Of a stretch of 64,000 bases of DNA, positions 823-61,017 are shown piece by piece (the first letter of the stretch is position 1; the number at the start of each line of letters is the position of its first letter). Source of the stretch: Prostheceraeus crozeri (lineage: Eukaryota; Platyhelminthes; Polycladida; Euryleptidae); the NCBI GenBank assembly GCA_907163375.1, contig CAJQUW010001810.1, forward strand, positions 310,001 through 374,000, in the 5' to 3' direction. The translations under genes and the position numbers were made by a program. The notes beneath the pieces are model-generated. The model was not told where the DNA came from. It saw only the letters and a list, made by a program, of their open reading frames with translations, and did not search any database.

Positions 823-823
823 T

Positions 824-29670: not shown

Positions 29671-29674
29671 TATC

Positions 29675-38100: not shown

Positions 38101-38103
38101 TCC

Positions 38104-38974: not shown

Positions 38975-39014
<40 letters not shown>

Positions 39015-41755: not shown

Positions 41756-41812
41756 GTAAATAATATTCACTAAATACATATTCATGATATGTATTTAGTG
41801 AATATTATTTAC
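41756..41812. repeat. Perfect palindrome, 25-bp arms
   Basis: GTAAATAATATTCACTAAAT(ACATA), spacer TTCATGA, then the exact reverse complement. AT-rich cruciform candidate. Confidence 0.9.
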
Positions 41813-42312: not shown

Positions 42313-42354
42313 TGGCTTAGTTCGCATATTTTATAGAATTTCAGGTTCGAGCCC
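42313..42354 (+). other. tRNA-like A and B boxes (possible SINE remnant)
   Basis: TGGCTTAGTTCG (A-box-like, 42,313) and GGTTCGAGCC (B-box-like, 42,344) are 32 bases apart, shorter than in a functional tRNA, and flanking stems do not pair well. Perhaps a decayed tRNA-derived SINE. Confidence 0.2.
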
Positions 42355-43805
42355 GTTTTGAGTTTTGCTCGGCCAGCTATAACTTACTCGATTGAAAAAT
42401 AAAATTATTCACTTTGTCAATAAAATAATCTACGTTGCATGGTAAACACAAAACATTCTAGACGAAATCATTATGGCTTGTGCTGAAAAGTATTCTTAGA
42501 TGTCGCAAATTCCTGTCGTATCAAGATTTAAATTACTCTTCTGATGCATGTATGAGGTAAATCGCATGGAAATGATGCAAAATCTTCAAAATCTCTTTAA
42601 TCTAAAATCATCGTGAATAGCAATAAATACATCAAACTGTAACGACATATAATATGAACCGTATACGTGGAGGACTGTGCTCAATGTCACATTGCGATCA
42701 ATACCAGCAGTTATGTATATACATGTAATATATATATACAAGTTATATTATATCAATATTGATCGTATGACCTCAAGCACTTTATCTATCCACTTTGAAG
42801 ACTTAATTTGGAAGAACGATGTTCCTTTCTTCATGCTTGGAAGTTTTTCATGAATAAATGATGGCATGATTTAGCTTGTCCTGCCTCTTATTAATGTGCG
42901 CGTTTTAAGATTTCATTTCACACCTATTGAAAGATGTTTGTTGATGATACCTGACGCTCTCGTCAACTCTTGAGTTGAGAACGTAATTAGTTGATAACTC
43001 ATTATTCCCTTCTTAGCAGGTTGCCTAAATGGAAAGTTGACTCAATTAACTCAACAATGATGAAGTTTCTAATACTTCCCAAAACAGCTGACTCAAAAAT
43101 GAAAAGATCTAGCTGCATACATTCACAGCTAAAACTTCTGATCGTCCGACATGCATGTGTGTTGTATCTTTGCAGACTAAAATGCTTTGACAGAAATTCA
43201 CACAGCATATCCGCATTCTACAATATTGTATCCACAACTGATGGTGCATGTTTTTGTACACCTTTAGGATCAACTAAAAGCATATGAAGAAAACAAACAA
43301 TTTTGTTTTCTCTAATTAATCTTTTAATTCAAATGAGCATATTGAAAAGTTGACTTCAAGAAAATGTCCAGATCCTATTTATCGCAGTAGTCAAGGAGAT
43401 TTATGCTTTCTGTTGTCATACATCAGCTGAGAATGTACTGAGCGATCAAATCTGGCTGAGTATATACGATTGAAGAATACGCTGTGAGTGAATCAACATA
43501 GGCTATAGGATTTGCTAGACAGCATGGGAGTAACAACCGGCCCCGCTGACCCCGCGCGGCGTGGCGGCGCCTTACCCTGACTCAAATTGGGGGCCCCTAA
43601 CCTATTTCAAAAATATATACGTGTGCTCGTAATATAGGCGAATTGTCAGATTGAAAATTTTTATCGACAAAATTCAATGTGAATGAAAAGTATGCTTAAA
43701 AGGGCAACATGAAGGTCAGTTGAATATTATAAAAAATTGGAAGCTCTAGATTGATCCATTTCACATATTGTCACAGCATGCGCCTTGACATGTGATCCTG
43801 TGTGA

Positions 43806-44098
43806 GTGCGCGTGCATTTACACAAGACGCTTCGCATCCAAACGATAAGCTTCGAAAATATTCTTTTGACTTCATCAGCAGGACAGACAGCATCAGCTAT
43901 TGCCAAAGATAGGAAGACAGAAGCCAAATTTACTGAGAAGAGAGTGAGAAGAATAAAGCGGTTCCACGATGAACGTTTCTGTGATGAACGTTTAATTAAT
44001 CCAGAAGCAGCATTCGGGGTTCATGTATTCTATCCAGGCGTTGACACCGCATTGGAGCAATTGAACTCAACGGTCGAGTCGATCAAAAGGTCTGGGAG
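43806..44098 (+). pseudogene. hAT-type transposase, left part, interrupted by element B
   Basis: The reading frame contains SAIAKDRKTEAKFTEKRVRRIKRF, a later FGVHVFYPGVDTALEQLN and STVESIK, wording typical of the middle of ZMYM1/TTF-type hAT transposases. It runs into the left end of element B at 44,099. The continuation is found 16.4 kb away at 60,509. The GC-rich patch at 43,540 may be near the hAT 5' end. Confidence 0.65.
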
Positions 44099-44688
44099 AG
44101 TAATGGGCAAAAGACCGTTCCAGGACACCATAAAATTCAAAAAAATAGTATCTTTAAAAACGACATAAATTCATGAATTTAGACCCCTTTTCAGGTTTTT
44201 AAGACCTAAATACATGAATTTAGTCCATTCAAAAAGTACCATTTTTTCAAAAAATGGTATTTTTAAAAACGACATAAATTCATGAATTTGATCCCTTTTT
44301 CAGGTTATGAAGACCTAAATTCATAAATTTAGGCGTTTTTAAAAATACCCAATTTTTCAAATTTTTCAAAATCTCAAAATTTGAGAATTACATTTTTCAC
44401 CCGCCCTTAAAATCATGACCGTTCCAGGACACCGAAAATCATAAAAGTTAAGAAACTCAAATTTGTGATTGTGACATTTTACTTTGAAAATCATGACCGT
44501 TCCAGGACACCGAAAATCATAAAAGTTGAGAATTTCAAATTCATGAATTTTATCCATTTTTCAGGTTTTTAAAATATGAGATAACTAAAATTATGTGTCT
44601 AATAATATTTCTTTAAAAAATGGAAGAAACAAAAATGGAAGAAACCGCAAGAATATATCCTTCGTTGTCATATGAACGTAGTTCTACT
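44099..44688 (+). repeat. Left terminal inverted repeat of element B
   Basis: About 590 bp, matching 59,857-60,508 inverted. It contains the word CCGTTCCAGGACACC three times (44,115; 44,419; 44,497) and the hairpin TACCATTTTTTC/AAAAAATGGTA near 44,240. The inner end extends over the first ~23 codons of the membrane-protein gene. Confidence 0.95.
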
Positions 44689-45243
44689 TTAATGGACATT
44701 GAAAAAATGAACAAAGAAAAACACAAAGATAGAGTTAGGTATATGAAAGATAAGGAATCTCAATTATTATTAAGATTAGAGCATTATAATAAATTAAGAA
44801 AGAGATGGACGATAGCTAAGAATGTGACACAAGGCGTTGGAGCATGTTTAACAATAAGTTTGGGTGCTTTAACAATTGTTATATCTTCAGGTGTTTTATT
44901 AATTCCTGTAGTTGCTACAGCTTTAACAGGTACGGGTGTTTTTGCAACTTCACTTGTTACAATGTTAGATAAATCTTTAATAACTAAGAAACGAAAATCA
45001 TTAAAAACTAAGCATTTACATATTAAAGAAGTCTATGACAAATTGCATTACTACTTTCAAAGAGTATGTGATGATAATGTTATTTCGTTAGATGAGATTG
45101 AAAAATTTGATCAAATGGCTAATGAAGCTAATAAAACGCCATTTCATTTAAAGTCCGAAAAAGTTGATGATAAGAATAAAAAGGATGATAAAACTTTTAG
45201 TGATGGTAAAATTTCTAATGAAGAAAATGATAAAATTTTTTAG
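44620..45243 (+). CDS. Polinton membrane protein (two hydrophobic segments)
   Basis: 207 residues. The polar, charged N-terminus has a coiled-coil-like stretch (RLEHYNKLRKRW, about 52-63), followed by two hydrophobic segments (about 72-88, GVGACLTISLGALTIVI; about 90-114, GVLLIPVVATALTGTGVFAT), then a helical region and an acidic/Lys-rich tail. A similar hairpin-membrane protein is common near the ends of invertebrate Polintons; function unknown, possibly membrane association of the virion or host-cell membrane change. One of the few open frames of element B. Its first codons lie within the TIR, and the right TIR carries the corresponding sequence without the ATG. Confidence 0.7.
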   Translation: MEETKMEETARIYPSLSYERSSTLMDIEKMNKEKHKDRVRYMKDKESQLLLRLEHYNKLRKRWTIAKNVTQGVGACLTISLGALTIVISSGVLLIPVVATALTGTGVFATSLVTMLDKSLITKKRKSLKTKHLHIKEVYDKLHYYFQRVCDDNVISLDEIEKFDQMANEANKTPFHLKSEKVDDKNKKDDKTFSDGKISNEENDKIF

Positions 45244-45411
45244 AAGAACTAAAAACTTTATTAAACAAAACTTTATTAAACAAATCTTTAGACGAGAAAA
45301 CTTTAAACGAAAAGATGTCGGACAACAAAGCAATAAAAAAATAATTTGTTCAGTAAAATGTTTTTGCTGTATTCCAATGTTACCACAAAATTCAAATATT
45401 ATATTTTAAAA

Positions 45412-46221
45412 ATGGATAAAATTAGAGCTGATAATTTTAAAAGAATAAAACAATTAGAAAAGTTAATAAAACAAAGAAATCTTATGAAAGAAAATCATCT
45501 TCAACATAGAATGATAAAAGCTGGTATTCAATCTGATATGTTTGAAAAAATGCAGCAAACCGAGCAAGTAAAAACTGATTTTGAAAAAACTATGAAACCA
45601 TTTAAAACTCTTGAAAAAGAACTTACAAATAATGATAAACAAATTGATATAACAGATCCAGAGCACAAAACTATATTAGATGACTATGGATTACTAGAAT
45701 CAAACATTAATAAGAAATTACCAAAATCTATGCAATTTGAACATTCTATTTCATCTATAGATGGAAAAAATACCTAGATTTTATCTCGGACAAAAAGAAA
45801 TATTTCCACAACCTTTTCGTGGTTTAATTTTTCACCAGATAAATCTCCATTTAATTTAGATAGAAATTTTGTTGATCTTTTAAGAGGAGCAGATTTAAAA
45901 AATTATGCTGTAGAAGATCTCATAAAATATAAAGCTATGTTAGATAGAGTTGGTGCAGTAAAATCTCTTAGACGTTATAAACAATTAGAAAATTTATTAT
46001 CATCGGGAGTTCAAGTAGGAACAGGATTACAAAAAGAAACAACTGTATTTTTACCAGATGATCCACAAGAATTACTAAATAGATTAAATATTTTAATATC
46101 TGCAATAAAAGAAGGACATAATTCTAGTTTCAATGAAATTCATGCTATATTGAAAAGACTGTTAGAAAAGAAGATTCTAAATGAAGAGGATTATAAAAGT
46201 GTAACTAACCGAATGTTCTAG
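45412..46221 (+). pseudogene. Conserved Polinton protein (ATPase/penton neighbour), one in-frame stop
   Basis: Start ATG 45,412 after TTTTAAAA. The frame runs for 121 codons to TAG at 45,775-45,777, then continues open in the same frame to 46,221 with LLRGADLKNYAVEDLIKYK, TTVFLPDDPQELLNRL and FNEIHAILKRLLEKKIL. The second half, with its 'LPDDP...LL..I....' phrasing, matches the hypothetical protein common in Polintons, and the whole is the likely counterpart of the element A gene at 130-822. A single nonsense change splits it. The final codons and the stop codon come from a double-hairpin repeat. Confidence 0.7.
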
Positions 46222-46231
46222 GGCTTCGCCC
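46207..46231 (-). repeat. Double-hairpin repeat, supplies end of upstream gene
   Basis: Minus orientation copy: AACC-GAA-TGTTC, TA, GGGC-TTC-GCCC. The stop TAG of the upstream gene is formed by its central TAG. Confidence 0.8.
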
Positions 46232-46338
46232 GTAGCTGAAATATGTTGTTTCTAATTTTTATCTATAATTTTTTTTATCTATGATTTTTTTATCTACGAT
46301 TTTTATCTATAATATTTATTCAAAATTTTAACTAAAAA

Positions 46339-47127
46339 ATGTGTTCAGCAGATTTAGACAAAATTAATAATCATTTAGAAAATTTGACAGAGATTTTGTG
46401 TTCATCAAAATTTAGTGCGACGTTAAAAATTATAACAACTACTTCATCACACACTTGTAATTTAGAACCCATTCTACATTTGGAACAAAATAAAAATTAT
46501 CAAATTGCATTGACTAGTTTCTCTACATTTAACACTATTCAAAACGTTATCAAAGATGTGAATGATCAATTTAGATATTCTACTGATAAAGGCAAAACAT
46601 GGAAAATACAAACTTTTCTTCCTGGTTCTTACGAAGTTGAATCAATATCAAATGAAATTAAGAGACATTTAGGTATACCATTTAAAGATAAGAAACAATT
46701 ACATTTTGCATTTGAACCGGCAGTTAATAAATTTTCTCTTACTTTGGACGAAAATCATCTAGTTGATTTTAATCATGATAGATCATTGTCAAAGCTATTA
46801 GGATTTAACAAACAAACCTATAGTCAAGGTTATCATTTAGGTGAGAAGATTCCAAAAATAACTGAAATAAATTCAATTGTTGTACATTGTGACATTATTG
46901 AAGGAGGATATATAAATGGTAAATTGTCAAATTTGATATTCAGTTTTCCAGCTTTTACTGTACCCATTGGTTATAGACTAAATGTAATTCCAAAAACATT
47001 AATATATTTCCCTATTACAAGAAAAACTATTAACAAAATTAACATTAGAATCACTGATGAGAAAGGACAAGAAATAAATTTTGGAGGTGAAGAGATTATG
47101 ATAGATCTTTTGGTTCGGGAGGTATAA
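46339..47127 (+). CDS. Minor capsid (penton-type) protein
   Basis: 262 residues, open. Family signs: CNLEPILHLEQNKNYQIALT near the N-terminus, FRYSTDKGKTWKIQTFLPGS, YEVESISNEIKRHLG, KLLGFNKQTYSQGYHLG, and the end INIRITDEKGQEINFGGEEI. These are typical of the single-jelly-roll penton-like protein of Polintons and match the C-terminal half of the element A structural proteins. The last residues (REV) and the TAA stop are read from the first unit of a 22-bp palindromic tandem repeat, so the natural C-terminus may have been altered slightly. Start ATG in the context ACTAAAAAATG. Confidence 0.8.
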   Translation: MCSADLDKINNHLENLTEILCSSKFSATLKIITTTSSHTCNLEPILHLEQNKNYQIALTSFSTFNTIQNVIKDVNDQFRYSTDKGKTWKIQTFLPGSYEVESISNEIKRHLGIPFKDKKQLHFAFEPAVNKFSLTLDENHLVDFNHDRSLSKLLGFNKQTYSQGYHLGEKIPKITEINSIVVHCDIIEGGYINGKLSNLIFSFPAFTVPIGYRLNVIPKTLIYFPITRKTINKINIRITDEKGQEINFGGEEIMIDLLVREV

Positions 47128-47178
47128 ACTCCCGTTCGAGAGGTATAAACTCCCGTTCGAGAGGTATAAACTCCCACG
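47113..47178. repeat. 22-bp palindromic tandem repeat, three units
   Basis: GGGAGGTATAAACTCCC-type units (first GGGAG, later GAGAG), each followed by GTTCGAG. Each has arms around GTATAAA. The third ends CTCCCACGCGAAGC. It begins inside the minor capsid coding end and provides its stop. Confidence 0.85.
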
Positions 47179-47245
47179 CGAAGCTAGAGAAGTTTAATTT
47201 TCTTCTTCTTCTTTTAAAATAAAAATAAATTTTTTTTATTAAAAA

Positions 47246-48014
47246 ATGAGTGAAATGCTACCATTAAATAAAAAAAAACTCAAATTTAATCATCATCCAA
47301 ATTTATCTAATATAGTTTTGTCAGTTATTTGCGGAAGATCAGGATGTGGAAAAACATATCTATTATTTAAAATTTTAACGACTCCAAATTTTTTGGATAA
47401 TAACAATCTTATTTTTTATACAACAACAGCAGAACAACCCGTCTATCAATTTTTAAAATATGGATTTTGAAAATAATCTTAAAAAAACAGCAATTGCTTC
47501 ATTATTCTAAGAATATGAAAAATCTGAAGATGAAGAAGAAATAAGTTCGTGGTGTGAAGAAGCAGCAAAAAATAGTCAGTTAGTAGAATCCAATAAAAAT
47601 AAGCATATAAAGATACAATTAATAGATGATAGTGGTAATATGCAAGATCCTAGTAAACTAGATAAAACAATGAAACATTGTGTAATTTTTGATGATTGTG
47701 TTAATGATAAAAATCAGTCAGTTCAGAGAAATTATTTCACAAGAGGTAGACATAACAACTGTAGTGTATTTTATTTAACACAAAGTATGTATTCATTAGA
47801 TGGAAGTGTTATTAGAAAGAATGCAAATATATTTATACTATTTGAAATAAATGCAAGAAACTTAAGTGATTTGTTAAGAGATTTATGCGTAAGAAATAAA
47901 GATGAATTTAAACAATCGTGTAACAATGCTTGGTCAAAAGATTATGGTTTCATTACAATTAATATTGATAAAAAAATTCATGATAGAGTTATAGAACATT
48001 TGTTTGCCGTGTGA
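47246..48014 (+). pseudogene. DNA-packaging ATPase (A32-like), frameshifted
   Basis: Start ATG after TTATTAAAAAATG. Walker A GRSGCGKT at about residues 30-37; after a frame change near 47,465 and a TAA at 47,508-47,510, Walker B MKHCVIFDDCV, the sensor-like FYLTQSMYSLDG and the C-terminal FITINIDKKIHDRVIEHLF remain. Matches the FtsK-HerA/A32 packaging motor of Polintons. Neighbour order minor capsid - ATPase fits Polintons. Inactive as it stands because the two Walker motifs are in different frames. Confidence 0.9.
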
Positions 48015-49233
48015 TAAAAATATAAAAATATAGTGTTATAATATTTTATTTTTTTATTTTATGTATATATCAAATTTGTCTATCTTAGAAATTAGAAAAT
48101 TAAAAAGGTAGAGTAGTTATTCCATCAGGTAAAATTTTTCTTTTATCATCAAATGGATTTAATGCTAATTTATGTTCTTCTTTTAAATACATTTTATGTT
48201 TCTTTGAATTAAGTCTATAATTACATGCTGTTTTTATTTCATTATTAAATAATACATTTTTATAATCTTGAAATGTTATTTGATTAGCCACTGATGCCTT
48301 TGAAATTCCTTTTAATGTTTTATGTGTTTTAATATTATTAGTTGTATTATAACAATAATATTTAGATTTTAAAAATATAGCTTCTGTTATGAAATCTTCA
48401 TTTCCTTCTAGTTCATCTTTTACTTTACATAAATCAGAAGGATGAATGATATCTTTTATTTTATCTATTTCTTTAACAAGTGTAGAATTATACGGTATTG
48501 TTAATTCTAAGAAAACAGAATCGGTATCTGTAAAGTGTAATTTATAGTTTTTGCCATAAGCAGGTTCTAAATAATCATATATAAATTTATACATAAATAG
48601 TTTAGCTAATTCTAATATAGTGAATCCAATAAAATTAAACTTATCATGTTTTACGCTAATTCGACGTAAGTGTACAGCACATAGATTATCACTAAATCTA
48701 GTAGTTCTTTTATATGGAGGTGTCCTTGTTAAATTTTGAAACCTATCTTTATCATAAACTATTTCAATATTTTGTTTATTACGCACATTTTCTAAAGTCT
48801 TACCATAAAATGCATTATTCATTAATTTGAAGAACACGTTTCCAAAATCATCTTTATTTCGTTTAGCTATTTTACGTTTTTCAATATTGAACTCTATATA
48901 ATTTTTTAACCATTTAGATTTTTGATAAAATAGTTTTCGATGTATTTTGGTGAGAATCATTCCATGTTCTAAATACCAATCTAGCATTCTTCCTTCAACA
49001 ACATACTTTCCTATATTACTTTGTGTTAACATAAGTTTTTTTGTTGGTCTGTATTTCTTAGGAATTATAGATTTTTGATAATCTGAAAAATCTTCTATAT
49101 TGGGAATTTCGTTTTCGGGACAGAAAGGAAAATATTTTGTTTTATCTTTTATTTCATCAGGGTATACTAAATCAACTTCATATATGTAACCATGATTATA
49201 ATTTCCATCATATGTTTTTTGATAATCAAGAAC

Positions 49234-49266
49234 GGGCGAAGCCCTAGTAGACATCTCTGACGACGT
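49234..49266 (+). repeat. Double-hairpin repeat inside polB
   Basis: GGGC-GAA-GCCC (49,234-49,244), then an imperfect second hairpin GACATC-TCT-GACGAC. On the coding strand it reads SEMSTRASP in the polymerase frame, in the variable loop after motif A. Confidence 0.8.
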
Positions 49267-50682
49267 ACGAATATTACACCATTCCATCTCACCTGTTGGT
49301 AATTCTTGTATCATGCAAGAAGAATATAAGCTATTAAAATCATGATATAACAAATAGTTTTCGCCCATGATTTCATCAACTGCTGCTTGACTCTCTTCAT
49401 TTGATATAAGTCCTTCTATATTTTGATTAAACAATTTTATAAACTGATCACTTTCTTCTGGAGATAAAGGTTTCATTATTCCATAATCATCAGGATTTAC
49501 TTTTTTATTGTAACACTGTACATTACGATTACCTAAAACTGATGAAACTTCACCTCTAATTCCAGATTCAAAAAGTAATAATTTATCATATGTATTCTCT
49601 TTATAATGTTTAAGTTTAACATTTGTATGTTTTAATCCTGCTAACCATGTTAAACCTGGTGTAGAATAACAATAACATGGATCTATTCCGTAATATTCCA
49701 AACACATGTCACGAAAGTTTTCAAAAAGATCAGCTAGTATTAATACATCTATCTGAAGATATTTCATTGTATAATCATACATTGTTTTACAATTTAACTC
49801 TCTCCAATTTTTTTCAGCTTCTGCATAATCTTCTTCAGATAATTGTGATTGCTTTAATGCTGATTTAAATTTATTTATTGGAGGAAGTTGTTTTTCTTCC
49901 ATAATTTTATTCACAGAATTAAAATCTCCAGTTAAACTAGTCTTCGACTGTGAACCACAGGTTAAATATTCATACGGAAATATTCCTTTTAAAGGTTTTA
50001 AATTATATTTATTTAATATTTTACATTGTTCACATTTCAAAGTTTTTCCCATAACATCTAATGAATAAGGAGTAAAAAATCGGAATGCATCTAAAATTCT
50101 AATACAACCTAATTGCATTGAAAAATATTCTTCTTCTGTTTTACATAGTACATTTATTTGTTGTTGTTGAAATTTTTCAGATGAAAATAAATCTTTCATT
50201 ACTAGATGGAAATCATATTTAGAACCATTGTAGAAATATAGAGAAATAAAGTTATATTTAAATTTATTAGCATTAAGATTACAAGAATTATGTGCTGCAC
50301 CTCTATATAATCCATTTAGATGATCATGATCTTTTACCTTATCAAGATATCTACCTCTGCCATTTTTATAATTTTTTGTAAATTCTTTTCCACAGTAATA
50401 ACAATTTGTTTCATTAAAAAAATTAATTTTTTCTTCATCCGTTAATGGAAGCATTGGTATATTTGTTTCAAGCAATTGTGAAAAACGTCCTTGTAATTCT
50501 TCTACTTTCTTTGTAAACATTTCTGAACTATCTTCACCATAGTATTGATAATATTCTCATTTCAATAATTCAGGATAATTTGAATGAATGTACATTCCCC
50601 AACATAATGGTTTTTGTTCAAATAAATATTTTTCTTTACTTTGTTCAGGTGTACTTTTCTCATAATTATCATTTTCAGAATC

Positions 50683-50713
50683 GGGCGAAGCCCTGGAAGA
50701 CATCTCCGATGTC
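50683..50713 (+). repeat. Double-hairpin repeat inside polB
   Basis: GGGC-GAA-GCCC and GACATC-TCC-GATGTC, both perfect. Read in frame as SEMSSRASP, just after the exonuclease I region. Confidence 0.9.
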
Positions 50714-52239
50714 CCGTGCTTTTGTGTCATATTAACATTATATGCTTCGAAATCACAATAAATAGTAAAGGGTACTTTATTTTTCAAATAATGTCTATTA
50801 TATATTAAATAATCATCTTTAGGAAAAGTATTTTCAACTGCTTCATTTTGTTGGCAATTCTCCAAATGTCTATTCATTTCTTCTAAAGTTCTAAAACTTG
50901 TCATACATTGAAGACAAGGAAAATTTGTATTATCTGAAGTTTTTGTAAATATAGAAAAATCTTTACACAATATAAAATGACCCTGATAATATAATATATT
51001 CGCTTGTGCTGGTTGCTTTGTTTGTTTTAATTTTTCAAATTTATCTTTATATATTTCATGTGTTTCATCAATTTGTCTTTGTAAATCTTTTTCAGACTGT
51101 TGATAATTTTGATTTAATATTTGTAGCTAATGTTCATATTCTTTTTCATATTGTTCTTTATATTGCTGTTGACATTTTTTTAAACATTCATTTATTTTTT
51201 GATTGGTTTCATTTTCTTCATTATTTGATTCTTTATTGTCTTCATTTAATTTTTGAATCGTTTCTATCTTATTTTGATATTTATGGCCATATTCTTGTAC
51301 TAATATTTTTGTTTGTTGTTGATAATCTGTTTTACATTTTTGTAAAATTTCATTTAAATTTTGTAATTTTTGTTGATATTCTAAAGATAAAGATGAATAT
51401 TTGTAATTATAATCATCATTACGTCCTTTATAATTATTATGATTAATCATTATTGGTGATAGTGTTTTAACAATTTCAAATTTTTCAGTACATATTATAT
51501 TTCCTTGGTAAAAAATATTATGATCGATGTAATTTCCTCTTTTATTGTATACTATTTCTGATTGACATAAATTTTTATTATTCAAATAAAATTTTTTTGA
51601 ATCTGAGTAAAGTGGAGTAATTTTACCAATAGAAACATAATTCACATTTAATTCAAAAACATTTACTTCTATTAAATTTTTATTCTTTTTATGAAACTTT
51701 ATTAACCTATTATAATCATATGGAAATTCATCTAAACCATCCGAAAGATCAAATTCCTTTATATATTCTTCTTTATTATAATGACTTAGTCTCTCTTTAT
51801 GATATTCTGCAGGATGTAAATGTGCTATAATACTCCACAGAAAACAATAATCATCTTCATTTTTCATGTTGATTATTTGTGGTGAACTGAAAGGTAAAGG
51901 AACATAACTACCACCAGTATTATTTTTATATTTATTAATTACTATTTTCTTGGACAGTATTTTAACAAATTTCCAACCAGATTCACGTAACTGGGCTTCA
52001 ATTATACAATTTTCTAATTTAAGTATCATTTGTTCAAATATGGGTTGTATATCATTTACATTATGAATTTCTTGTGAATTTGTAAAATGTCCTTGTATTA
52101 TTTCTTCAGGAATTCCATCAGGTCCAGTTTTTGTATAAAGTACTTCTACATTCATATAACATTTGAAAGATTTCTTAAATATTTTGAAAAAGTTGGATAG
52201 AATATCAGAAAAAGTTTTATCGGTTTCATTATGTTCAAC

Positions 52240-52265
52240 GGGCGAAGCCCTAGAACCTTCGGTTC
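52240..52265 (+). repeat. Double-hairpin repeat inside polB
   Basis: GGGC-GAA-GCCC and GAACC-TTC-GGTTC, both perfect, separated by TA. Read in frame as RTEGSRASP. Confidence 0.92.
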
Positions 52266-52371
52266 GTACCGATTCAGTAAATAAATATTTTATATTTGCT
52301 AAGGCTTCATCGGTTCGTTCAGCTTCATCAAATTCATCAGTATCGCTAAATAAATATCTTCCATCTGGTAC

Positions 52372-52397
52372 GGGCCAAGCCCTAGAACCTTCGGTTC
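52372..52397 (+). repeat. Double-hairpin repeat inside polB
   Basis: GGGC-CAA-GCCC and GAACC-TTC-GGTTC. Read in frame as RTEGSRAWP, 44 codons from the previous copy. Confidence 0.92.
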
Positions 52398-52797
52398 GTA
52401 CATGTTCATCTTCACTATTAAAAACTTTTTTATATTCCGAATGTGAATAATCATCAAACATTTTTTTAACTTTTATATCAGTAGGTAATGCTTCTAGATA
52501 GTTTTTATAACTATTTAATTTTAATATATTTCCTTCATCAACTCGATCTACATTTTGTAAATGCAATTTACTATTTAAATGAGATTGATAACTTCTTTTT
52601 GTTTGCAATTTTTTTTTACATAAGACACAATAAAACTTGGTATTTTCCACTTTTTTTATTTTTTAAAGAAAAAAATTGTGTTTTAATTTTAGATATAAAC
52701 ATTCTAATATCAAGGACTTGAGTGTTATTTTATATTATTATATATTACACGTTCTTAAGTTATTTTTATTTTCTTTATCATATTAAGTTTTATCATA

Positions 52798-54188
52798 TTA
52801 AGTTTTATCATATAACGTTTTATCAAAAGATAATTTAAATTTATTTTCACTAACTATTGATTCTTCATCATCATCATCATCAATTGATTCTTCATCATCA
52901 TCATAAATTGATTCTTCAACATCATAAATTACACTTTTTGGTATAGGATGCCATTCCCTGATAGGATACCATTCTCTTATTGGTATGTCTAACTCTAAAT
53001 TACATTTTTTATCTGATAATAATATAATAGAGAAAAATATTGGTCTTTGATCTCTTTTGGAAAATTTAATAACACCACCATAATCTGAATAACTTTTAGT
53101 TTTTATTAAAGATGATAAAATTTTAAATTGATTAGATGTAAATCCTAATTTAAATTTTGTAGACCCGACACATAGTTGTCTAACAATATCTTCAACTATA
53201 CCATCATTATTATTTTCAATTGTAAGAAAATGAAATTTAGATAAATTTTGATTATATGTAGTATTAATATCATGTACATCAGTGTGTGATATAAATTTTT
53301 CTTCACTTAAATTTTTATAATTACTAATATTTTTATAATCTTTTTTACCATTTACACCATTTTCAGATGTTTCGGAATCATCATCTATATTATCATCATT
53401 TATATTATTATCATCATTATTATTATAAGATTCTTTAAGATCGGGCAAAGCCCTAGAACCTTCGGTTCGTTTATTATGATTATGATTATGGTCATTGTTA
53501 ATAGTATAAGGTGTTGTCCACATATAAATTTTCTCTTGTTGAGCTAAACCATTGATGTAAGATTTTAACAAATTGATATTTAAGTTTGAATATAATCCTA
53601 TATACGTATCATCATCATATCTTTGCGGCATTTCTAATATTTCTTGTTTATAAATTGTATCTCTATAATAAACTTGACATAATAAGTCTTCATTATGTTA
53701 TTTACTCTCTATGTGAATATTATATTGATTATGGTCATCAACAAATAATCTTATTTTTTCTTTGAAAAAGATTTTAATTTTTTAACTAATTCTTTAATAT
53801 TATTATAATTAATAATTTTTGTTTCTATCCAATCAGTATTACTAATTGGTAATACTGCTCTAATAAAACCATAAACATTATTATGACCTATTATAACCAT
53901 ATTTTCTTTATTTAATTCAACATAAGCTACATCATTATATTTACTAACAATATCCATAAATTTTATAAATGGATCACCTGGGAAAATAGAATAATTGGTT
54001 TCTATAGAAGGTAAACCTTTTGTTTGTTCTTTAAATATTTCAGCTTGTAATTCAAATAAAATATTAACATCTATACATGGATTATTATCATTATCAAAAC
54101 ATTTATTTTCAAATCCCGTTGATCTCGTCGAATAAGAAGAACAGGATGATGCGGGCGAATATAATTTTTTAAAATTTGCTTTATCCAT
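52798..54188 (-). pseudogene. Unknown gene upstream of polB, one frameshift and one stop
   Basis: Starts with ATG 54,188 (AAAAAAATGGATAAAG). The first frame runs to 53,751, where a frame change in an A-run leads into a frame that has one TAA near 53,700 and then is open to 52,798. Content: N-terminal Ser/Cys-rich part; FPGDPFIKFMDIVSKYNDVAYVEL and MVIIGHNNVYGFIRAVLP; later FHFLTIENNNDGIVEDIV, STKFKLGFTSNQFKILSSLI and an acidic tail of Asp/Glu repeats. It sits directly upstream of polB on the same strand. The alternating-strand pattern could suit a sliding-clamp-like or capsid-associated protein, but I do not recognise a family. A double-hairpin repeat is inserted in frame at 53,443. Confidence 0.55.
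53443..53468 (+). repeat. Double-hairpin repeat inside unknown gene
   Basis: GGGC-AAA-GCCC and GAACC-TTC-GGTTC, perfect stems. Read in frame as RTEGSRALP. Confidence 0.92.
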
Positions 54189-54345
54189 TTTTTTATTTTT
54201 ATTAGAAAAAAATTTTTATTTTTTATTTTTATTAGAAAAAATTTTATTTTTTTATTTTTATTAGAAAAAATTTTATTTATTTATTTTTATTAGAAAAATT
54301 TTTATTTTTTTTCTCATTATATAAAAAATTTTATTTTTTTATTGT
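54189..54345. promoter_or_regulatory. Divergent AT-only intergenic region with direct repeats
   Basis: TTTTTATTAGAAAAA(TTTT) is repeated four to five times at about 30-34-base spacing between the divergent minus-strand gene (54,188) and the fibre-like gene (54,352). Nearly pure A/T; probably the bidirectional promoter. It resembles the T-run then A-run leader before other element B genes. Confidence 0.45.
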
Positions 54346-54351
54346 TAAAAA

Positions 54352-55238
54352 ATGATGCTACCAAACTTGGTGGAGGTGCATATATCCCGAATAATCGTGA
54401 AATAGAAATAGAGATAGAAAATTATATCATGAAAACTGGAGACGTTTTATCTGGTCCATTGCATCTTTCTATTCTTCCGCAACAAAATACAGAGTTAACA
54501 AATAAACAATATGTTGATACACAAATCAATGACTTAAAAAAAATATATATAAACGATGTTATGGTTCCACTGATGAATGAATTAAAGTTGCTTAAACTTA
54601 ATGACAAATCATTAAACGAAAAATTATTAAAACTTGATAAAAAGGATAGAGAGCTAGAAGCAGATATAGCAAAACTTTTTAAAAAGATTTCTGAACAATT
54701 AAAAATTTTAATATTACTTTCTATAAAGTTAAAATCTGCAGTCATTAAAAATAAATATCAGATACAACTATTAAAAGAACAATTAGAAGATGAAATAGAA
54801 AATCTACCTGAAAGAATTTAAAAAAAATTAAAGCAGTTACAAACTACATTCCAAAAAAGTGTTGATGAATTGAGTTCTAAAATTACTCAACAAATGAAAA
54901 AGATGAATAGAATAATAAATGAAGTAAACTCACTTAATCAAAAAGTTGATAAAATGAAAACTCTTAAAATCAATTTAGAAAATGAATTAAAGAAAAATTT
55001 ACAAGAAAACTCAAAAGAAAATAAATAACAGTTAGATTCTGTTAAAAGACAACTAGATGTTCTTAAAATTAAGTTAAATGCTCTTAAAACGGCGTTGAAG
55101 ATGAATCAGGAGAAAATGCAAGTTAATAGAAAAGAAATTAAAGTACATCACACGCTACTTGACGCAATAGATAAAGTGCAACAGACAATTAATAAAGTTA
55201 TCTCGAAGTTGTTGTTCATTCACAAACGTAAATCTTGA
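54352..55238 (+). pseudogene. Fibre-like coiled-coil protein with tail-fibre motif
   Basis: The only suitable ATG (54,352, after TTAAAAA) is out of frame with the body, which is open as GGGAYIPNNREI onward, so there is a frame change near the start. The body has KTGDVLSGPLHL and ELTNKQYVDTQI (about residues 25-65), the 'GDxLxGPLxL...xxNKxYVD' motif of phage and Polinton/adintovirus fibres, followed by over 200 residues of heptad coiled coil. TAA stops at 54,819 and 55,026 interrupt the same frame; it ends at TGA 55,236-55,238. Likely receptor-binding or virion-surface fibre, no longer intact. Confidence 0.7.
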
Positions 55239-55310
55239 TCATAAACGTAAATCTTAGCGTAAATATTAACGTAAATATTTTTTCCCAAAAGTCAAATTTA
55301 TTCCTAAAAA

Positions 55311-55877
55311 ATGCCTATAATTTATAAACACAATCTTAAACATTTTGCTTCAAATCAAAGAATTGCTCATGAACCACGTATGAATCCTGTTTATCATTAT
55401 GATAATAGAGAAACAGTCGGAACACAAAAGTTCCTAGGCACCGCAGGTGCCGTTCACACGGAAGGAGCTGGCATCTTTTCTGGTATTGGAAGTATCGTTA
55501 ACTTAATTAAAAATAATAAAGATTTGATTACATCTGCTGCAAAAGGAGCAGCTGTTATAGGTAGTACAGCTAGTGCAATATCAAATGCTGTTAAGTCTCA
55601 AAACGAATTAAAACAACTAGAAGCTATTCGTAAACTTAGGAATGATTCTGAAGAACTAAAAAATTTAAAAAAACTTTCAGAGGAAACAAAAAACAAAATT
55701 GCTAACATAGCTGCGGGGGAAACCTTGAGGAGCGGAGCTCCGTCTGATAGTAAACATAAGAAGAAATCAGGCGTAGCCATAAAACGTTCAATTGAAGAAA
55801 TAAGAGGTAATGGTGTTAACAGCAACCTTCGGTCTAACCAGCAAAGCTGTAGCGGAGCTGGTCTAGCAAAATTCTAA
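55311..55877 (+). CDS. pVI-like minor virion protein 1
   Basis: 188 residues, open. N-terminal basic/aromatic part, then GAGIFSGIGSIVNLIKNN and LITSAAKGAAVIGSTASAIS (about residues 50-90), an amphipathic/hydrophobic region like adenovirus VI-type membrane-lytic or minor capsid proteins of Polintons, then a charged helical region and basic tail. Three hairpin-like inserts are coded in frame: GGCACC-GCA-GGTGCC (55,437), GGAGC-GGA-GCTCC (55,729) and a larger one forming the C-terminus (55,825-55,862). These may have lengthened the protein without breaking the frame. Confidence 0.6.
   Translation: MPIIYKHNLKHFASNQRIAHEPRMNPVYHYDNRETVGTQKFLGTAGAVHTEGAGIFSGIGSIVNLIKNNKDLITSAAKGAAVIGSTASAISNAVKSQNELKQLEAIRKLRNDSEELKNLKKLSEETKNKIANIAAGETLRSGAPSDSKHKKKSGVAIKRSIEEIRGNGVNSNLRSNQQSCSGAGLAKF
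55437..55451. repeat. Single perfect hairpin in coding sequence
   Basis: GGCACC-GCA-GGTGCC, six-base stem with a three-base loop, in frame in the pVI-like gene. Same design as the double-hairpin repeats. Confidence 0.7.
55718..55741 (+). repeat. Hairpin repeat in coding sequence
   Basis: Weak first part GGGAAACC, then a perfect GGAGC-GGA-GCTCC (55,729-55,741). In frame (RSGAPSD). Confidence 0.65.
55825..55862. repeat. Hairpin repeat at C-terminus of pVI-like gene
   Basis: ACC-TTC-GGT followed by ACCAGC ... GCTGGT (55,837-55,862) with further internal pairing. It codes most of the last 15 residues. Confidence 0.55.
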
Positions 55878-55988
55878 AATATATTTTTTAGTAAAATTTT
55901 TTAGCAAAATTTTTTCAGTAAAATTATTTTAGCAAAATTTTTTCTGTGTTTGAAAAAAAAACAAAAAGTCAAATTATTTTTCATAAAA

Positions 55989-57323
55989 ATGTCTTCGCTT
56001 ATCGAAAATAAATTTGAATTAGATAAACCACCAGGTGTTAGTTATAATCAAAAAAAGAATGACTATATAAGAATTGCTATGAATCCCGGATCTTCCAGTA
56101 GAGTAAATACTGGAGGTGATTTAATTTTTGAAGTTGATAATCAGCAGAGTTATTTATATTTATCTGATTCATTTTTACACTGTGAATATTCTTTATATAT
56201 TGATGCCAATTTTACAACACCATTACCAGATACCGATAATATTGCACTAGAGAATAATTTTTTTCCAAGATTTTTTACACAAATGCGTTTAGATGTTGCA
56301 ACTCAAAATATAGAAACAATAAGTGATTCTCCAGGTGTGATTGATACAATGCTTAGATTTGTAACAATTGGTGAAAATAATATAAAGTATGAAATCGAAG
56401 GATGGTTTCCTGATACTAATGATGGTATAATTATACATGATTTAACTTACGCTGGAACAGACGCAGCAGGAATTGCGAAAGATGTAGAACAAATTGCAAA
56501 ACATTTAAATAAAACAAACAATAGTGCATATAAAGAAAGACGTGAGTTTAACAAGAAAAGTAAACAGACAGTAAATTGGTCATTGTCTCCATTATTCGGA
56601 TATTTAGATTATGATAAAATATCATATCAATTAAAATTTAAGTTAATAATTCATCGTACAGCAAATAATGAATTAATCTTTTATGGTAAAACTGGAAAAA
56701 AAAGCATATTTAAAAATTGATAGACTTGAATGGTGGATTAAGCATATTACTCCTAGTTTAGAGGTTGAAACAGCTATTGCAAAAAGATTAAATACTAACA
56801 AACCAATTCCAGTAAATTTCTAAAGCGTACTGCTAGTTCAGTAACTTTTTCCGAACAAAGATTTAACTGGCATTTTACTAGAACTGCGAATACTCCAAGA
56901 TATTTATTACTAACTTTTCAAAGAAATAATTCTCCAAGTTTTGATAAGAACAACAATCTTTTTCATATTAATACAATTCGAAGTTTACAAGTTTCATTAC
57001 ATCAAACCCGATATCCAATTGATCCATTAAGATTCGATGATACCAATAATCAATTTATAGAAGGATACGATTCTTATCGAAATCTTTGTATAGAATTTGG
57101 AGTTGAACCACAATTAACTCCTGGAGATTGGAGACATTTATATCCTGTTTTCTGTTTCGATTTTAAGTGCACAATCTGAAGATATTATCAAGACTGGTTG
57201 TGATGTAACAATTGATATTGAAAAAAAAGATTCCACAACTTCATTGATGGCTTATGGTTTATTGCTAGAAGATGTAAAATATTCTATTGAAATTCTTAAT
57301 GGAAAGATGGCTAGGATCGGCTG
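55989..57323 (+). pseudogene. Major capsid protein, frameshifted
   Basis: Start ATG 55,989 (CATAAAAATGTC). The first frame is open to 56,720: PGSSSRVNTGGDLIFEVDNQ, YLYLSDSFLHCEYSLYIDAN, NWSLSPLFGYLDYDK. Beyond a frame change in an A-run near 56,700 the product continues with LEWWIKHITPSLEVETAIAK. After another near 56,820 come RYLLLTFQ, INTIRSLQVSLHQTRYPID and FGVEPQLTPGDWRHLYPVF. A third near 57,155 leads to the end. The 'TPRYLLLTFQ...YP.D...F' and 'D..HLYPVF' phrases are typical of Polinton double-jelly-roll capsid proteins, of a different subfamily from element A. The stop TGA (57,321-57,323) lies inside a double-hairpin repeat. Confidence 0.8.
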
Positions 57324-57345
57324 AAGCCTCGAGGAGCTTCGCTCC
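57319..57345 (+). repeat. Double-hairpin repeat at end of capsid gene
   Basis: GGC-TGAA-GCC and GGAGC-TTC-GCTCC. The TGA of the first loop is the capsid stop codon. The second stem differs from the polB copies, but both arms changed together. Confidence 0.85.
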
Positions 57346-57455
57346 GATAAGTTAATTAAATTCTTAGATTAAATTTTTTTTAGTAATTAGTAATAAAATT
57401 TTTTCATAACTAGAATAGAGTAAAAATTTTTGATAACTTAAATTTTTTATTAAAA

Positions 57456-57938
57456 ATGTCGCAAGCGAAAAGTAATAATAATAAAACTGTTGAATTAAAA
57501 TTACGTAATATTGTTGACAAAAATACCCCTAAAACTATTACGATTAACAAAAAAAAGTATTACATAAGTAAACCAATGATAGAGAATATTCAATTACAAG
57601 AAGAAAAGAATGGCGGGATTCTCCCATTAATTCCACTAATAATAGGAGGCATAGCAGCTGCAGGAAGTGTTGCAGGTGGGACAGCTGGTATTGTCCAAGC
57701 AGTAAATAAAAATAAATCAGAGAAAGCAGCATTAGAAGAACAAAAACGTCATAATAGAGAGTTAGAGAAAGTTGCTAGGGGTGACGGAATAGTAGATAAT
57801 TTTATTAGTAAATTAAAATTAGTTGATGAAGGAAAACGAGTTCTTAAGAATATTCTCCACAATGTTGATGATTTAATTGAAATTAAAGAAACTAAAGATG
57901 GTTCTGGAATATATCTAAGTCCTAGTATGATTCGGTAA
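57456..57938 (+). CDS. pVI-like minor virion protein 2
   Basis: 160 residues, open. The N-terminal half is basic (TITINKKKYYISKPM). The centre has NGGILPLIPLIIGGIAAAG followed by GSVAGGTAGIVQAVNKNKSE (about 50-87), a hydrophobic/Gly-Ala segment running into a charged helix KAALEEQKRHNRELEKVARGDG. It ends with DGSGIYLSPSMIR; 'GsGiYL.P' is a recurring C-terminal tag of Polinton minor capsid proteins. Probably links DNA or core to the capsid or disrupts membranes on entry; inference from family. Start in TTATTAAAAATG. A double-hairpin repeat follows 26 bases after the stop. Confidence 0.7.
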   Translation: MSQAKSNNNKTVELKLRNIVDKNTPKTITINKKKYYISKPMIENIQLQEEKNGGILPLIPLIIGGIAAAGSVAGGTAGIVQAVNKNKSEKAALEEQKRHNRELEKVARGDGIVDNFISKLKLVDEGKRVLKNILHNVDDLIEIKETKDGSGIYLSPSMIR

Positions 57939-57963
57939 TAACCTCAGGACTTTGGGTCCGATC

Positions 57964-57987
57964 GGCTAAAGCCTCTGAACAAGGTTC
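57964..57987 (+). repeat. Double-hairpin repeat, intergenic
   Basis: GGC-TAAA-GCC and GAAC-AAG-GTTC, between the pVI-like and PLA2-integrase genes. Confidence 0.8.
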
Positions 57988-58019
57988 GATTAGGTAAAAC
58001 ATTTATTTTATCTTTTAAA

Positions 58020-59309
58020 ATGAATTCTACAAATTCCGAAAATTTATTTAAATTAAAAATTGCTAATTTAGATTTATTGAATTATCTATTAAACAAAAAT
58101 AAAAACTCAAATTGTCAGAATATTGGAGGTGACATACAAAAAGCATTAGAAAACTTTCCTGGATTTATTTGGAGTAAATATTCGAAAGAAAAACATCTTC
58201 CTGGTCATTCATATACCGGTCCAGGAACTCGATTAGATATAAGACTAGATGAGAATAATAATCCGAAACCAGGTGAAGAACCAATAAATAGAGTAGATGC
58301 CGCAGCTTACAGGCATGATTTAGCTTATCGAAATCATGACCTAAGTTCTCGACATGCAGCTGATAAGAAGATGATTCAAGAATTAGATAGTATTCAGAAT
58401 CCTTCCTTTAGAGAAAAAATTGAAAGAATGTTTGTTAAGAAAGCTTTACAAGCTAAAATATTATTCGGTCAGGGTTTAAATGAAGCGACATCAAAGCTGT
58501 CTGAGAGCAACGCTCGAACCTACGCGTCTGAAATTCATAAAGAATATAGAAAGCCTAAATATTTATTGAAAGTAAAAGTATTTAATAAAGATGTTATTTG
58601 GAGTGCTGATTTTATTCATATGCCGAATGATTCTGATTATAAATACGCATTGACCGTTATAGATTTATATACACGATACGCTTGGGTAAAGCCTTTAAAA
58701 AACAAAAGTGGTCTATCAGTTAAATATGCGTTTGAAGAAATCTTTAAAGAAAGTAAGAGAAAGCCAAAAAAATTGTTTGTTGATAAAGGGTCGGAATTTT
58801 ATAACCGAAACGTTCAGCCACTATTTGAAACTGTTTATTCAACTGAAAATGCAGGGAAGGCCGTAGTGATAGAAAGATTCAATAGATCATTGAAAAATAA
58901 AATTTTGAAAAAATTTACTGAGCGAGGAAATCAGAAATGGTTGAAGATATTACCAGGAGTTGTAGAAGAGTACAATAATAAAGTTCATTCTGGTATTGAA
59001 GAAACTCCAAAGAATGCTTCTGACGACCCAGATTTAATACGAAAGAAAATATTCGAGAATAATTATTCGAATGAGAGTAATCCGAATTTACAGTAACTTA
59101 AGCCGAAATTTAAGATTGGAGATAGAGTTAGAATATTTAAGTATAAGAATAAATTCGAAAAAGGCTTTGTTGGCTATTGGACGAAAGAGATATTTGAAGT
59201 TTGTAAAATAAATCAAACTTATCCGATTACTTACGAAATCAAAGATTTAGATGATGAAGATATCAGAGGCCGATTTTATCAAAATGAATTACAACGAACT
59301 GATTTTTAA
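58020..59309 (+). pseudogene. Phospholipase A2-like / integrase fusion with one in-frame stop
   Basis: One 430-codon frame from ATG 58,020 to TAA 59,307, broken by a single TAA at 59,094. The N-terminal part (about residues 45-125) is a parvovirus-VP1-type phospholipase A2: Ca loop YTGPGT (65-70) and catalytic RHDLAYRNHD (H99, D100). From about 172 onward it is a retroviral-type integrase: D197 (WSADFIH), D255 (FVDKGSEF), E285 (VIERFNRS). D-to-E spacing is 29, four less than in element A. The usual N-terminal integrase segment is absent. The part after the stop has the SH3-like end (KIGDRVRIFKYK) and no chromodomain. The joint (about 162-170) is a degenerate double-hairpin repeat. Confidence 0.85.
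58505..58528 (+). repeat. Degenerate double-hairpin repeat at PLA2/integrase joint
   Basis: GAGC-AAC-GCTC (perfect) followed at once by GAACC-TAC-GCGTC (partly decayed from the GAACC/GGTTC form). In frame. Confidence 0.65.
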
Positions 59310-59358
59310 TTATCACTATTATTGGAACTAACGTTTCGGGAATGAAATTCCCTTATTA

Positions 59359-59383
59359 GGCGTAGCCATAGAACCTACGGTTC
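59359..59383 (+). repeat. Double-hairpin repeat, intergenic
   Basis: GGC-GTA-GCC and GAACC-TAC-GGTTC, just past the end of the convergent protease gene. The loops differ from the polB copies, the second stem is the same. Confidence 0.85.
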
Positions 59384-59803
59384 GTTCAATTCTAACATAA
59401 TATCAAGAAATGGTACTCCTTTTTGTAATTTAAATAAAACATAAAGACATAATTGACCACAGTAAGTAGTTCCTGGTTTTTGAATTTGAAATGTATTATA
59501 AATTCCATTCCCAAGTAATTCTTTTACTTCTTTTGTAGGTGGAAGACCATAAGAGTCAAAACAATAATTATCTCCGTTTTTATTAAAGATACCTGCTGAC
59601 CAATTTACTCCTTTTTCATCTGATGTGTGAAGATTTGTTATGAAATTTATAGTTATTGTTGGCTTATTTTTGATCAATTGTAATTCGTCTCTCATTAGAA
59701 CATGAAAATTCTTTATTCATAATTGATTTGCAATTTTCTTTAGATCAAAATTTGTAGTTGTTTGCGTTCCATATAATTTTAAAAACTTATTTATGTTGTT
59801 CAT
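59375..59803 (-). pseudogene. Adenain-like protease, one in-frame stop and His-to-Asn at the active site
   Basis: Frame from ATG 59,803 (ATTATAAAATG) to 59,375, 142 residues, with one TGA at 59,717-59,719. Conserved parts: GVNWSAGIF, YCFDSYGLPP, FQIQKPGTTYCGQLCLYVLF. In this family the first block reads H-W; here Asn stands at the His position. Asp in FDSYG, Gln in QIQ and Cys in TTYCG are present, with Gln-to-Cys spacing as expected. Both changes predict no activity. The last few codons overlap the second hairpin of the repeat at 59,359-59,383. Confidence 0.82.
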
Positions 59804-59856
59804 TTTATAATAAAAAAAATTCTTAAGGGACCCCTAGAAGTTATAAGGTAGGGGGT

Positions 59857-60508
59857 AGTAGAACTACGTTCATATGATATTGAAGGATATATTCTTGCGG
59901 TTTCTTCCACTTTAAAGAAATATTATTAGACACATAATTTTAGTTATCTCATATTTTAAAAACCTGAAAAATGGATAAAATTCATGAATTTGAAATTCTC
60001 AACTTTTATGATTTTCGGTGTCCTGGAACGGTCATGATTTTCAAAGTAAAAAATAATCTTAATCACAAATTTAAGATTCTTAACTTTTATGATTTTCGGT
60101 GTCCTGGAACGGTCATGACTTAAGCGAGAAAATTGTAATTCTCAAATTTTGAGATTCTTAACTTTTCTGATTTTTTCGGTGTCCTGGAACGGTCATGATT
60201 TTGGGAGTAAAAATTGTAATTCTCAATTTTTGATATTTTGAAAAATTTGAAAAATTGGGTATTTTTAAAAACGCCTAAATTTATGAATTTAGGTCTTCAT
60301 AACCTGAAAAAGGGATCAAATTCATGAATTTATGTCGTTTTTCAAAATACCATTTTTTGAAAAAATGGTACTTTTTGAATGGACTAAATTCATGTATTTA
60401 GGTCTTAAAAACCTGAAAAGGGGTCTAAATTCATGAATTTATGTCGTTTTTAAAGATACTATTTTTTTGAATTTTATGGTGTCCTGGAACGGTCTTTTGC
60501 CCATTACT
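59857..60508 (-). repeat. Right terminal inverted repeat of element B
   Basis: About 650 bp, inverted copy of 44,099-44,688. The word GGTGTCCTGGAACGG occurs four times (near 60,017; 60,097; 60,178; 60,478) against three in the left copy, so one subunit was gained or lost. Confidence 0.95.
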
Positions 60509-61017
60509 AGGGAGAAGTTTGTAAAGCGTTTGAATTTTTGAATCCGTCGAATCAGATTATTCACCATCTTCCATAAAAGCCGGTGCCACATCCCTTTTGA
60601 AGCTATTTCCGTCAGTTCTTTAGATCCAGAGACTGATTTGGGGCAATTCGCTCATGAATTTAATGTGGAGCTGAAAAAGTTGTCGTCAATGCGATCACTG
60701 CATGCATGAGTTGCTGAAGGAATCACATTGTTGTCTTCGATGCTTGGAGCTGCTGCAGCGATTTCACTGTTTCTAACATTACCAGTAACAGCTGCTAGTG
60801 CAGAACATTCCTTCTTAAAATTGAAGATAATTATGAACTACTCACGCCCATCGGTGTCTCAAAGTCGATTAGATGGCTTGCCCCTGCTAGCCATCGAGAA
60901 CAAGGAGACTCAAAGCACTGCTTGGGATGTTGTCATTAACATGTTTGCGTCCAAAAATGCCTCTCGGAGTGACAGATTTAATTTATGTAGTTTATCGTAC
61001 TCCTTGAACATGGTCTG
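60509..61017 (+). pseudogene. hAT-type transposase, right part
   Basis: Continues the gene broken at 44,098. EKFVKRLNF follows the element end; later LGQFAHEFNVELKKL and, after stops, the dimerisation region ISLFLTLPVTAASAEHSFLK, SVSQSRLDGLPLLAIENKET, the 'LPV..A.AERSFS.LK....R..M...RL..L..L.I' signature of hAT transposases. Several stops show that it was already decaying or decayed after insertion. Confidence 0.8.

Follow-up and report, generated by a model that had tools for sequence, protein, structure and literature searches.

A family of ultrashort double-hairpin units, very probably mobile, inside a Polinton/adintovirus family of the flatworm Prostheceraeus crozeri

Rickettsia palindromic elements are palindromic sequences of ~100-150 bp that lie in frame within bacterial genes. 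Double-hairpin elements (DHE) of Allomyces and the repetitive hairpin elements (RHE) of sponges, both from mitochondrial DNA, consist of two adjacent hairpins and are considered mobile; for the Allomyces DHE, flanking duplications are reported to be lacking, as told in PMC2800124. GC clusters of the yeast mitochondrial GC42 family are palindromic, 42 bp long, mostly intergenic and flanked by AG or ACT, and in the account of PMC4478555 the phenomenon, found ~40 years before 2015, was then still called poorly understood. Miniature inverted-repeat transposable elements (MITEs) have been described from giant viruses: Submariner of Pandoravirus measures 243 bp, duplicates TA and has ten of its 30 copies in genes (as given in PMC4495683), and M1 and M2 of Pithovirus have terminal repeats of 54 and 47 bp and a putative TA duplication (as given in PMC10664404). 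Here we describe units made of two adjacent GC hairpins in element B, a Polinton/adintovirus-like element that lies in a 64,000-nt stretch of P. crozeri DNA (contig CAJQUW010001810.1, positions 310,001 to 374,000; this whole stretch is the window, and all positions refer to it). Each unit is very probably an ultrashort non-autonomous mobile element living inside a Polinton/adintovirus family. Their closest known kind is the mitochondrial palindromic GC clusters, with yeast as the best match, together with the double-hairpin elements.

Like yeast GC clusters as PMC4478555 portrays them, the units are GC-rich palindromes in AT-rich DNA that reach high copy numbers, are polymorphic for presence or absence, have short direct repeats at their flanks, and undergo merging and shuffling among units with one 5′ part in common. 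Unlike the clusters of that account, they are mostly 28 bp long (also 34 and 37 bp), Polinton-borne, flanked mostly by A/T, and often genic and in frame. With the Allomyces DHE and sponge RHE they share the two adjacent hairpins; those elements differ in being organellar, in a comparison that covers arrangement and residence. The features that mark GC clusters and double-hairpin elements (adjacent GC hairpins in AT-rich DNA, presence or absence with short repeats, merger and shuffling) are thus found here, and residence in mitochondria is not, as 46 of 48 sampled places fall in copies of the Polinton family. An initial annotation, made from the letters of the window, had likened the hairpins both to mitochondrial double hairpins and to Rickettsia palindromic elements. 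The first likeness fits far better; unlike the second kind, the units measure 28-37 bp as a rule and lie in a Polinton. With the giant-virus MITEs, in the parts described in PMC4495683 and PMC10664404, they have in common non-autonomous inverted repeats in DNA viruses and a 2-bp A/T duplication; those MITEs differ in their length, ~140-243 bp or five to nine times that of the units, and in having TA and long terminal inverted repeats, where the units have hairpins. The annotation knew of no description in Polintons, and searches of open-access literature, which leaves aside most subscription papers, turned up nothing of this size in Polintons.

Element B is multicopy in the host assembly (2.05 Gb, 14,165 contigs), and comparison of its copies revealed presence or absence of units at 17 sites: 44326, 44392, 44599, 47990, 48323, 49233, 49617, 49923, 49935, 50337, 50669, 52239, 52303, 52371, 53442, 57963 and 58133. 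Occupied and empty sites in sister copies bear out the proposal that a hairpin family is spreading through the element. Since the loci (L numbers) were fetched by similarity to unit-holding queries, the ratios given here are biased and are not frequencies. They count only reads of empty or unit length; loose anchors also gave unrelated matches, and these misreads were dropped (3 at 44326, 33 at 44392, 12 at 49923 and 37 at 49935, with 49617 also rich in unrelated matches). Site 44326 was occupied in 35 copies and empty in 5 (43 read), and 44392 in 39 and 3 (75 read). Occupied and empty copies numbered 2 and 31 at 48323, 14 and 17 at 49923, 14 and 17 at 49935 (31 usable reads), 16 and 14 at 50337, and 1 and 2 at 58133. 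Of 34 copies read at 49233, 32 were occupied (empty in L002 and L007). Seven were occupied and two empty at 52239 (L099, L104; 10 read, 1 misread dropped), and five were occupied and three empty at 52371 (L003, L006, L114; 8 read of 9 covering loci). The sole other copy covering 53442, L006, is empty, as is L004 at 57963, where 2 of 8 covering loci were readable. Copies at 47990 form a stepwise series, with 17 empty, 2 holding a 30-nt unit and 4 holding a second unit nested in the first. None of the 18 copies read at 46205 was empty: 5 had one 28-bp unit, 8 had one ~35-bp unit and 5 had units in tandem.

At 44599, 28 loci (two of which overlap) are empty, while L040 and L069 hold different units. 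Over ~2 kb, L069 and the empty copy L050 are separated by 6 mismatches and one other indel, so that the gain at this site, or conversion from another copy, was recent. A similar compound unit with more than two stems was observed at two sites, near window position 55279 in L091 and near 57786 in L004 and L093; compound units therefore seem to move too.

Where a close empty copy exists, a 2-bp duplication is the rule, one that is established for such sites rather than for every site. Searching the flanks of 43 distinct occupied sites separately, we met an empty counterpart for 26, and the offset was -2 in 58 of 73 comparisons. Among 129 alignment events with flank identity of at least 0.85, counted separately for each copy of a site, 50 were exactly 30 nt and 13 were 39 nt, and the gap could slide by at least 2 bases in 77. 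The 30 nt consist of a unit of 28 bp and a duplication of 2 bp, usually A/T; 37-bp units give 39 and a 34-bp unit gives 36. The clean pair at 52371 reads CATCTGGTA, unit, TACATG in the occupied copy and CATCTGGTACATG in L003. Other clean cases are 49617 (AA), 44326 and 44392 (both AT), 49233 (AA, 37-bp unit) and 48323 (AA, 34-bp unit).

The fold is kept across unrelated sequences, as the initial annotation had suggested in holding that structure rather than sequence is preserved. Several unrelated units share the fold.((((...))))..(((((...)))))., and the typical geometry is 1+4+3+4+2+5+3+5+1 = 28 nt. For 12 distinct 28-mers, a set chosen for this length that includes variants of one unit, so that cells are not independent, 96.3% of pair cells were standard, 7 of 9 pairs changed on both sides, and the covariation score was 0.667, compared to 0.278 for shuffled sequences and at most 0.141 when slid. 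One of the five measures in this test, further pair types, was not above shuffles (12 vs 12.6). Within element B, 12 of 17 triloops, several of them in copies of one unit, read C[GNA]G on one strand. Loops of this type form very stable DNA minihairpins such as GCGAAGC. The two hairpins are opposed, with the GAA loop of the first on one strand and that of the second on the other, and mutually inverted with similar ends (CGGGC-GAA-GCCC and CGAACC-GAA-GGTTC, by eye). The second hairpin is an exchangeable module: at 50682, the 30 loci compared, the window among them, show three versions of it (GACATC..GATGTC, GAACC..GGTT and GGAAC..GTTC), and the unit in L022 has lost an internal part. Copies hold both 28-bp and longer versions at 46205, 52239 and 52371, and units also occur nested and in tandem.

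These hairpins exceed expectation within element B. GGGCNAAGCCC occurs 6 times in the window, always inside the element between 46221 and 53453, compared to 0.00 in 100 shuffles. With up to 2 mismatches, GAACCTTCGGTTC has 9 window matches (exact at 52253, 52385 and 53456), compared to 0.8 expected; 3 of the 9 lie outside the element. The annotation's reading was to fall if shuffles gave equally many hairpins. They did not: between the inverted repeats there are 17 GC hairpins (score of at least 8) against 1.8 expected and a maximum of 6 in 200 shuffles, and 4 back-to-back pairs against 0. Shuffling thus rules out chance hairpins. GC hairpins showed no excess at 1-14000 (5 vs 7.1 expected) or 1-15000 (7 vs 8.4), and a mild excess was seen at 15001-30000 (19 vs 10.8) and 29001-44000 (13 vs 7.3). 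In element B we could delimit ten double-hairpin units, besides hairpins that stand alone or in tandem; the first count, at least eleven copies plus lone hairpins, was close to this.

Many units lie inside genes. Inserts in polB, translated at ten sites among element copies, are all stop-free and in frame, and give RTEGSRASP, SEMSSRASP, QADGSRTKSV, CGSQSKT, RSDGSAV, GQALEPSV and similar peptides; alignments of L034 and L025, with lengths that are not multiples of three, were left out of this set (L034 reads 30 nt elsewhere). The commonest unit has a stop codon in 2 of 6 frames. A 30-nt step adds exactly ten residues without a frame break, and the same step occurs in the noncoding terminal inverted repeats. 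Selection for frame is therefore not its only cause: the frame-neutral length seems largely intrinsic to the unit, with selection acting on orientation and frame. The initial annotation placed five copies in frame in minus-strand genes, four of them in polB and one in a gene of unknown function, all in one orientation. This holds in the window, where it had overlooked a further in-frame polB unit at ~49935-49962, and breaks down in other copies, which at 50669 hold a reversed unit, read GQALEPSV. Nor do polB inserts avoid motifs, as had been thought, since the 49233 unit lies within the DNA_pol_B_2 match and the 50337 unit of other copies just before the DHDH of an HNH-like stretch. In being short blocks within coding sequence, the inserts resemble the mitochondrial byp inserts of Magnusiomyces; byp inserts, as presented in PMC5009743, disrupt frames and are skipped by ribosomes, whereas polB inserts have lengths divisible by three and contain no stop codon; plain translation thus suffices, and ribosomal bypass is unneeded.

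PolB relatives indicate the direction of change. The 49233 peptide is absent in all five relatives that cover it (P0003-P0007), and the 52371 peptide is clearly absent in P0119, which indicates gain at both sites. At 52239, the part missing from P0119 is a longer stretch, and the alignments of P0004 and P0005 are poor there.

Genome-wide, GGGCGAAGCCC occurs 13,298 times in the host, compared to 36 for its reversed control, and the commonest full 28-mer, counted with a non-G base three places out on each side, 3,001 times compared to 0. Among places holding the commonest first hairpin, sampled from the first listed contigs (C2-C62), 46 of 48 lie in element B's family (8 of 8 examined as loci, and 38 of 40 further regions with the hairpin masked), on contigs of up to 583 kb. 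Five more regions picked for clustering (L040-L044) also match element B, and 30 terminal-repeat loci with flanking sequence contain no first-type hairpin outside the element. General spread through the host genome is thus not supported. In L075 and L081, GGGCGAAGCCC stands in other sequence outside the Polinton family (AGGGCGAAGCCCGAG) and does not form units; this is possibly another repeat. A scan of IMG/VR with the unit's first 18 bases gave 0 matches.

These data are read most economically as transposition-like insertion with a 2-base stagger. The hairpins may be recognised as folded DNA, perhaps in single strands exposed while the Polinton replicates by strand displacement; a trans-acting enzyme would make a 2-base staggered cut, the unit would be copied or pasted in, and units would then be amplified passively along with the Polinton. 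A speculative candidate for the enzyme is the HNH/endonuclease VII-like stretch of the Polinton's own PolB. Many PolB relatives have PF02945 (endonuclease VII) marked in them; in the PolB of element B it falls below the cut-off. Its ability to resolve branched and cruciform DNA makes endonuclease VII an obvious suspect, but nothing beyond that. The Polinton integrase is a poor candidate because the duplication beside element B measures 6 bp. More generally, though we hold it rather unlikely, the units may be a class of transposable element with hardly any sequence identity of its own, recognised by shape and size instead of sequence, in which any ~28-nt double minihairpin could be inserted with a 2-base stagger by the carrier Polinton's machinery, perhaps the endonuclease VII-like stretch of PolB.

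Several observations weigh against mobile units. Most of the 3,001 copies are carried along in terminal repeats and are not separate insertions, as the terminal-repeat context AAT..ATT surrounds 90 of 100 listed matches of the commonest 28-mer; of exact units listed outside that context, only 1 of 10 has matching dinucleotides. Flanking dinucleotides also differ at 46205 (TA/TT), 52303 (TA/TT) and 53442 (AT/TT), the 52239 pair L101/L099 fits a duplication of AC rather than A/T (by eye), and the gap slides by only 0 or 1 base in 52 of 129 events. The 50337 unit is a single 24-nt hairpin with unclear ends, and 44599 in L069 gives 31 nt without a clean duplication. Different units at one site could reflect conversion rather than repeated insertion. 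Moreover, a length of 28 bp leaves very little room for two transposase ends; neither a transposase nor an autonomous partner came to light, though no search was aimed at one, and no movement was observed.

The main rival, which we consider unlikely, is template switching without a dedicated enzyme, in which the element's polymerase jumps to a nearby hairpin and back at a two-base microhomology and so copies a unit to another location. Second hairpins that vary at fixed sites, tandem and nested units of the kind copying errors would give, and flanks that do not always match would all suit such a process, and Polintons probably replicate with long stretches of single-stranded DNA. However, a donor copied with its flanks would bring its own dinucleotide along, yet near-identical units sit in AT/AT, TA/TA and TT/TT, and the 28-bp length recurs at many sites. 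It is improbable that the units are extremely shortened but otherwise ordinary MITEs derived from a Tc1/mariner-like transposon of the host. Inverted hairpins and a 2-bp duplication do correspond to the terminal inverted repeats and target duplication of MITEs, which also occur in giant viruses. At 28 bp as a rule, the units nonetheless fall short of the roughly 50-800 bp usual for MITEs; their duplications go beyond TA, several unrelated sequences share one geometry, and 46 of the 48 sampled places belong to one Polinton family.

That the hairpins are stationary functional signals which selection maintains, be it to terminate transcription or to mark sites of RNA processing, is very improbable. 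Several hairpins do stand at gene 3′ ends or hold a stop codon (46205, 47113, 57318, 57963, 59357); the 46205 unit, first taken as intergenic, provides the upstream frame with its stop codon (46219-46221). Such signals would not explain presence and absence among close copies, insertions in mid-polB, in terminal repeats and inside another unit, or the freedom of the stem sequence. Most likely the units lead a selfish life, and use of hairpins as gene ends would be secondary. That the peptides are ancestral conserved protein segments folding by chance as DNA, a possibility raised with the initial annotation, can practically be dismissed: they are in frame wherever translated in polB, yet are absent from PolB relatives and sister copies, the empty sites already refute the idea, and the same units lie in noncoding repeats.

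The carrier has the marks of Polintons and adintoviruses: a type-B DNA polymerase, an rve integrase, terminal inverted repeats and a 6-bp target duplication with one mismatch (TGGGAG / AGGGAG). Its terminal inverted repeats lie within 44099-44617 and 59911-60508; an alignment of 44092-44617 with 59911-60517 has 509 of 526 aligned bases identical, with 81 bases of the right repeat unaligned. GC content is 22-32% in 2-kb steps. Named adintovirus and arthropod proteins among the PolB relatives are ~30-33% identical, including that of the Ladona dragonfly adintovirus (P0051, 33%). Three unnamed close relatives reach 74% and 62% over the whole query piece and 73% over 22% of the query. One IMG/VR search gave no polB relative and a second gave a single one (L001, 27%), which has no hairpin excess (2 vs 3.9 expected). 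The protein-relative search for the unknown gene gave none. A Pfam scan that bears on capsid and packaging ATPase genes gave no match for 7 of 10 open reading frames (ORFs), including 55950-56720 and 57456-57938 (the ORF near 47247-48015 was outside the set). Nine terminal-repeat places (L045-L053, query excluded) are 100% identical to the query over 381 bp, a sign that this Polinton family has been amplified very recently in the host. The ORF at 58020-59096 fuses a phospholipase A2-like domain with the rve integrase, and a lone hairpin (58505-58515) lies between the domains. Across the 5 element copies read, the tandem 21-bp palindromes at 47113-47175 vary in number. The frame starting at 45412, which the 46205 unit stops, also holds an internal stop.

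Table 1. Positions of element B, its hairpin units and two empty sites in the window
Feature	Position	Strand	Remarks
Element B	44099..60508	.	Polinton/adintovirus-like; long terminal inverted repeats; DNA_pol_B_2 and rve domains
Empty site in window	44326..44327	.	Terminal repeat of other copies has 28-bp unit CGGCTAAAGCCAGAGGAGCTTCGCTCCG, AT duplicated
Empty site in window	44391..44393	.	Terminal repeat of other copies has commonest 28-bp unit, AT duplicated
Double hairpin, 28 bp	46205..46232	-	TAG at 46219-46221 is stop codon of frame starting at 45412
Three tandem 21-bp single hairpins, GGGAG-GTATAAA-CTCCC	47113..47175	+	Loop holds stop codon of ORF 46339-47127
polB reading frame	48100..52650	-	Carries five units; two internal stops break frame in window copy
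Double hairpin, 37 bp, polB	49233..49269	+	Read SEMSTRASP; AA duplicated
Double hairpin, 28 bp, other sequence, polB	49935..49962	+	Read CGSQSKT; exact ends ambiguous
Double hairpin, 37 bp, polB	50682..50718	+	Read SEMSSRASP
Double hairpin, 28 bp, polB	52239..52266	+	Read RTEGSRASP
Double hairpin, 28 bp, polB	52371..52398	+	Read RTEGSRAWP; TA duplicated
Double hairpin, 28 bp, unknown gene	53442..53469	+	Read RTEGSRALP
Lone hairpin, GGCACC-GCA-GGTGCC	55437..55451	+	Within ORF 55311-55877
Lone hairpin, GGAGC-GGA-GCTCC	55729..55741	+	Within ORF 55311-55877
Double hairpin, 29 bp	57318..57346	+	Flanks AT/AT; TGA in first loop seems to end upstream frame (by eye)
Double hairpin, 26 bp	57963..57988	+	Flanks AT/AT
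Double hairpin, 28 bp	59357..59384	+	Past integrase gene

To our knowledge, units of 28 bp would rank among the smallest mobile pieces of DNA. They extend the mitochondrial phenomenon of GC clusters and double hairpins to a virus-like element in a large genome of eukaryotic type, and the many near-identical copies there make it possible to set occupied sites against empty ones. As parasites of a parasite, such units would have a route through crowded viral genes, since a step of 28+2 nt makes ten residues and leaves the frame intact.

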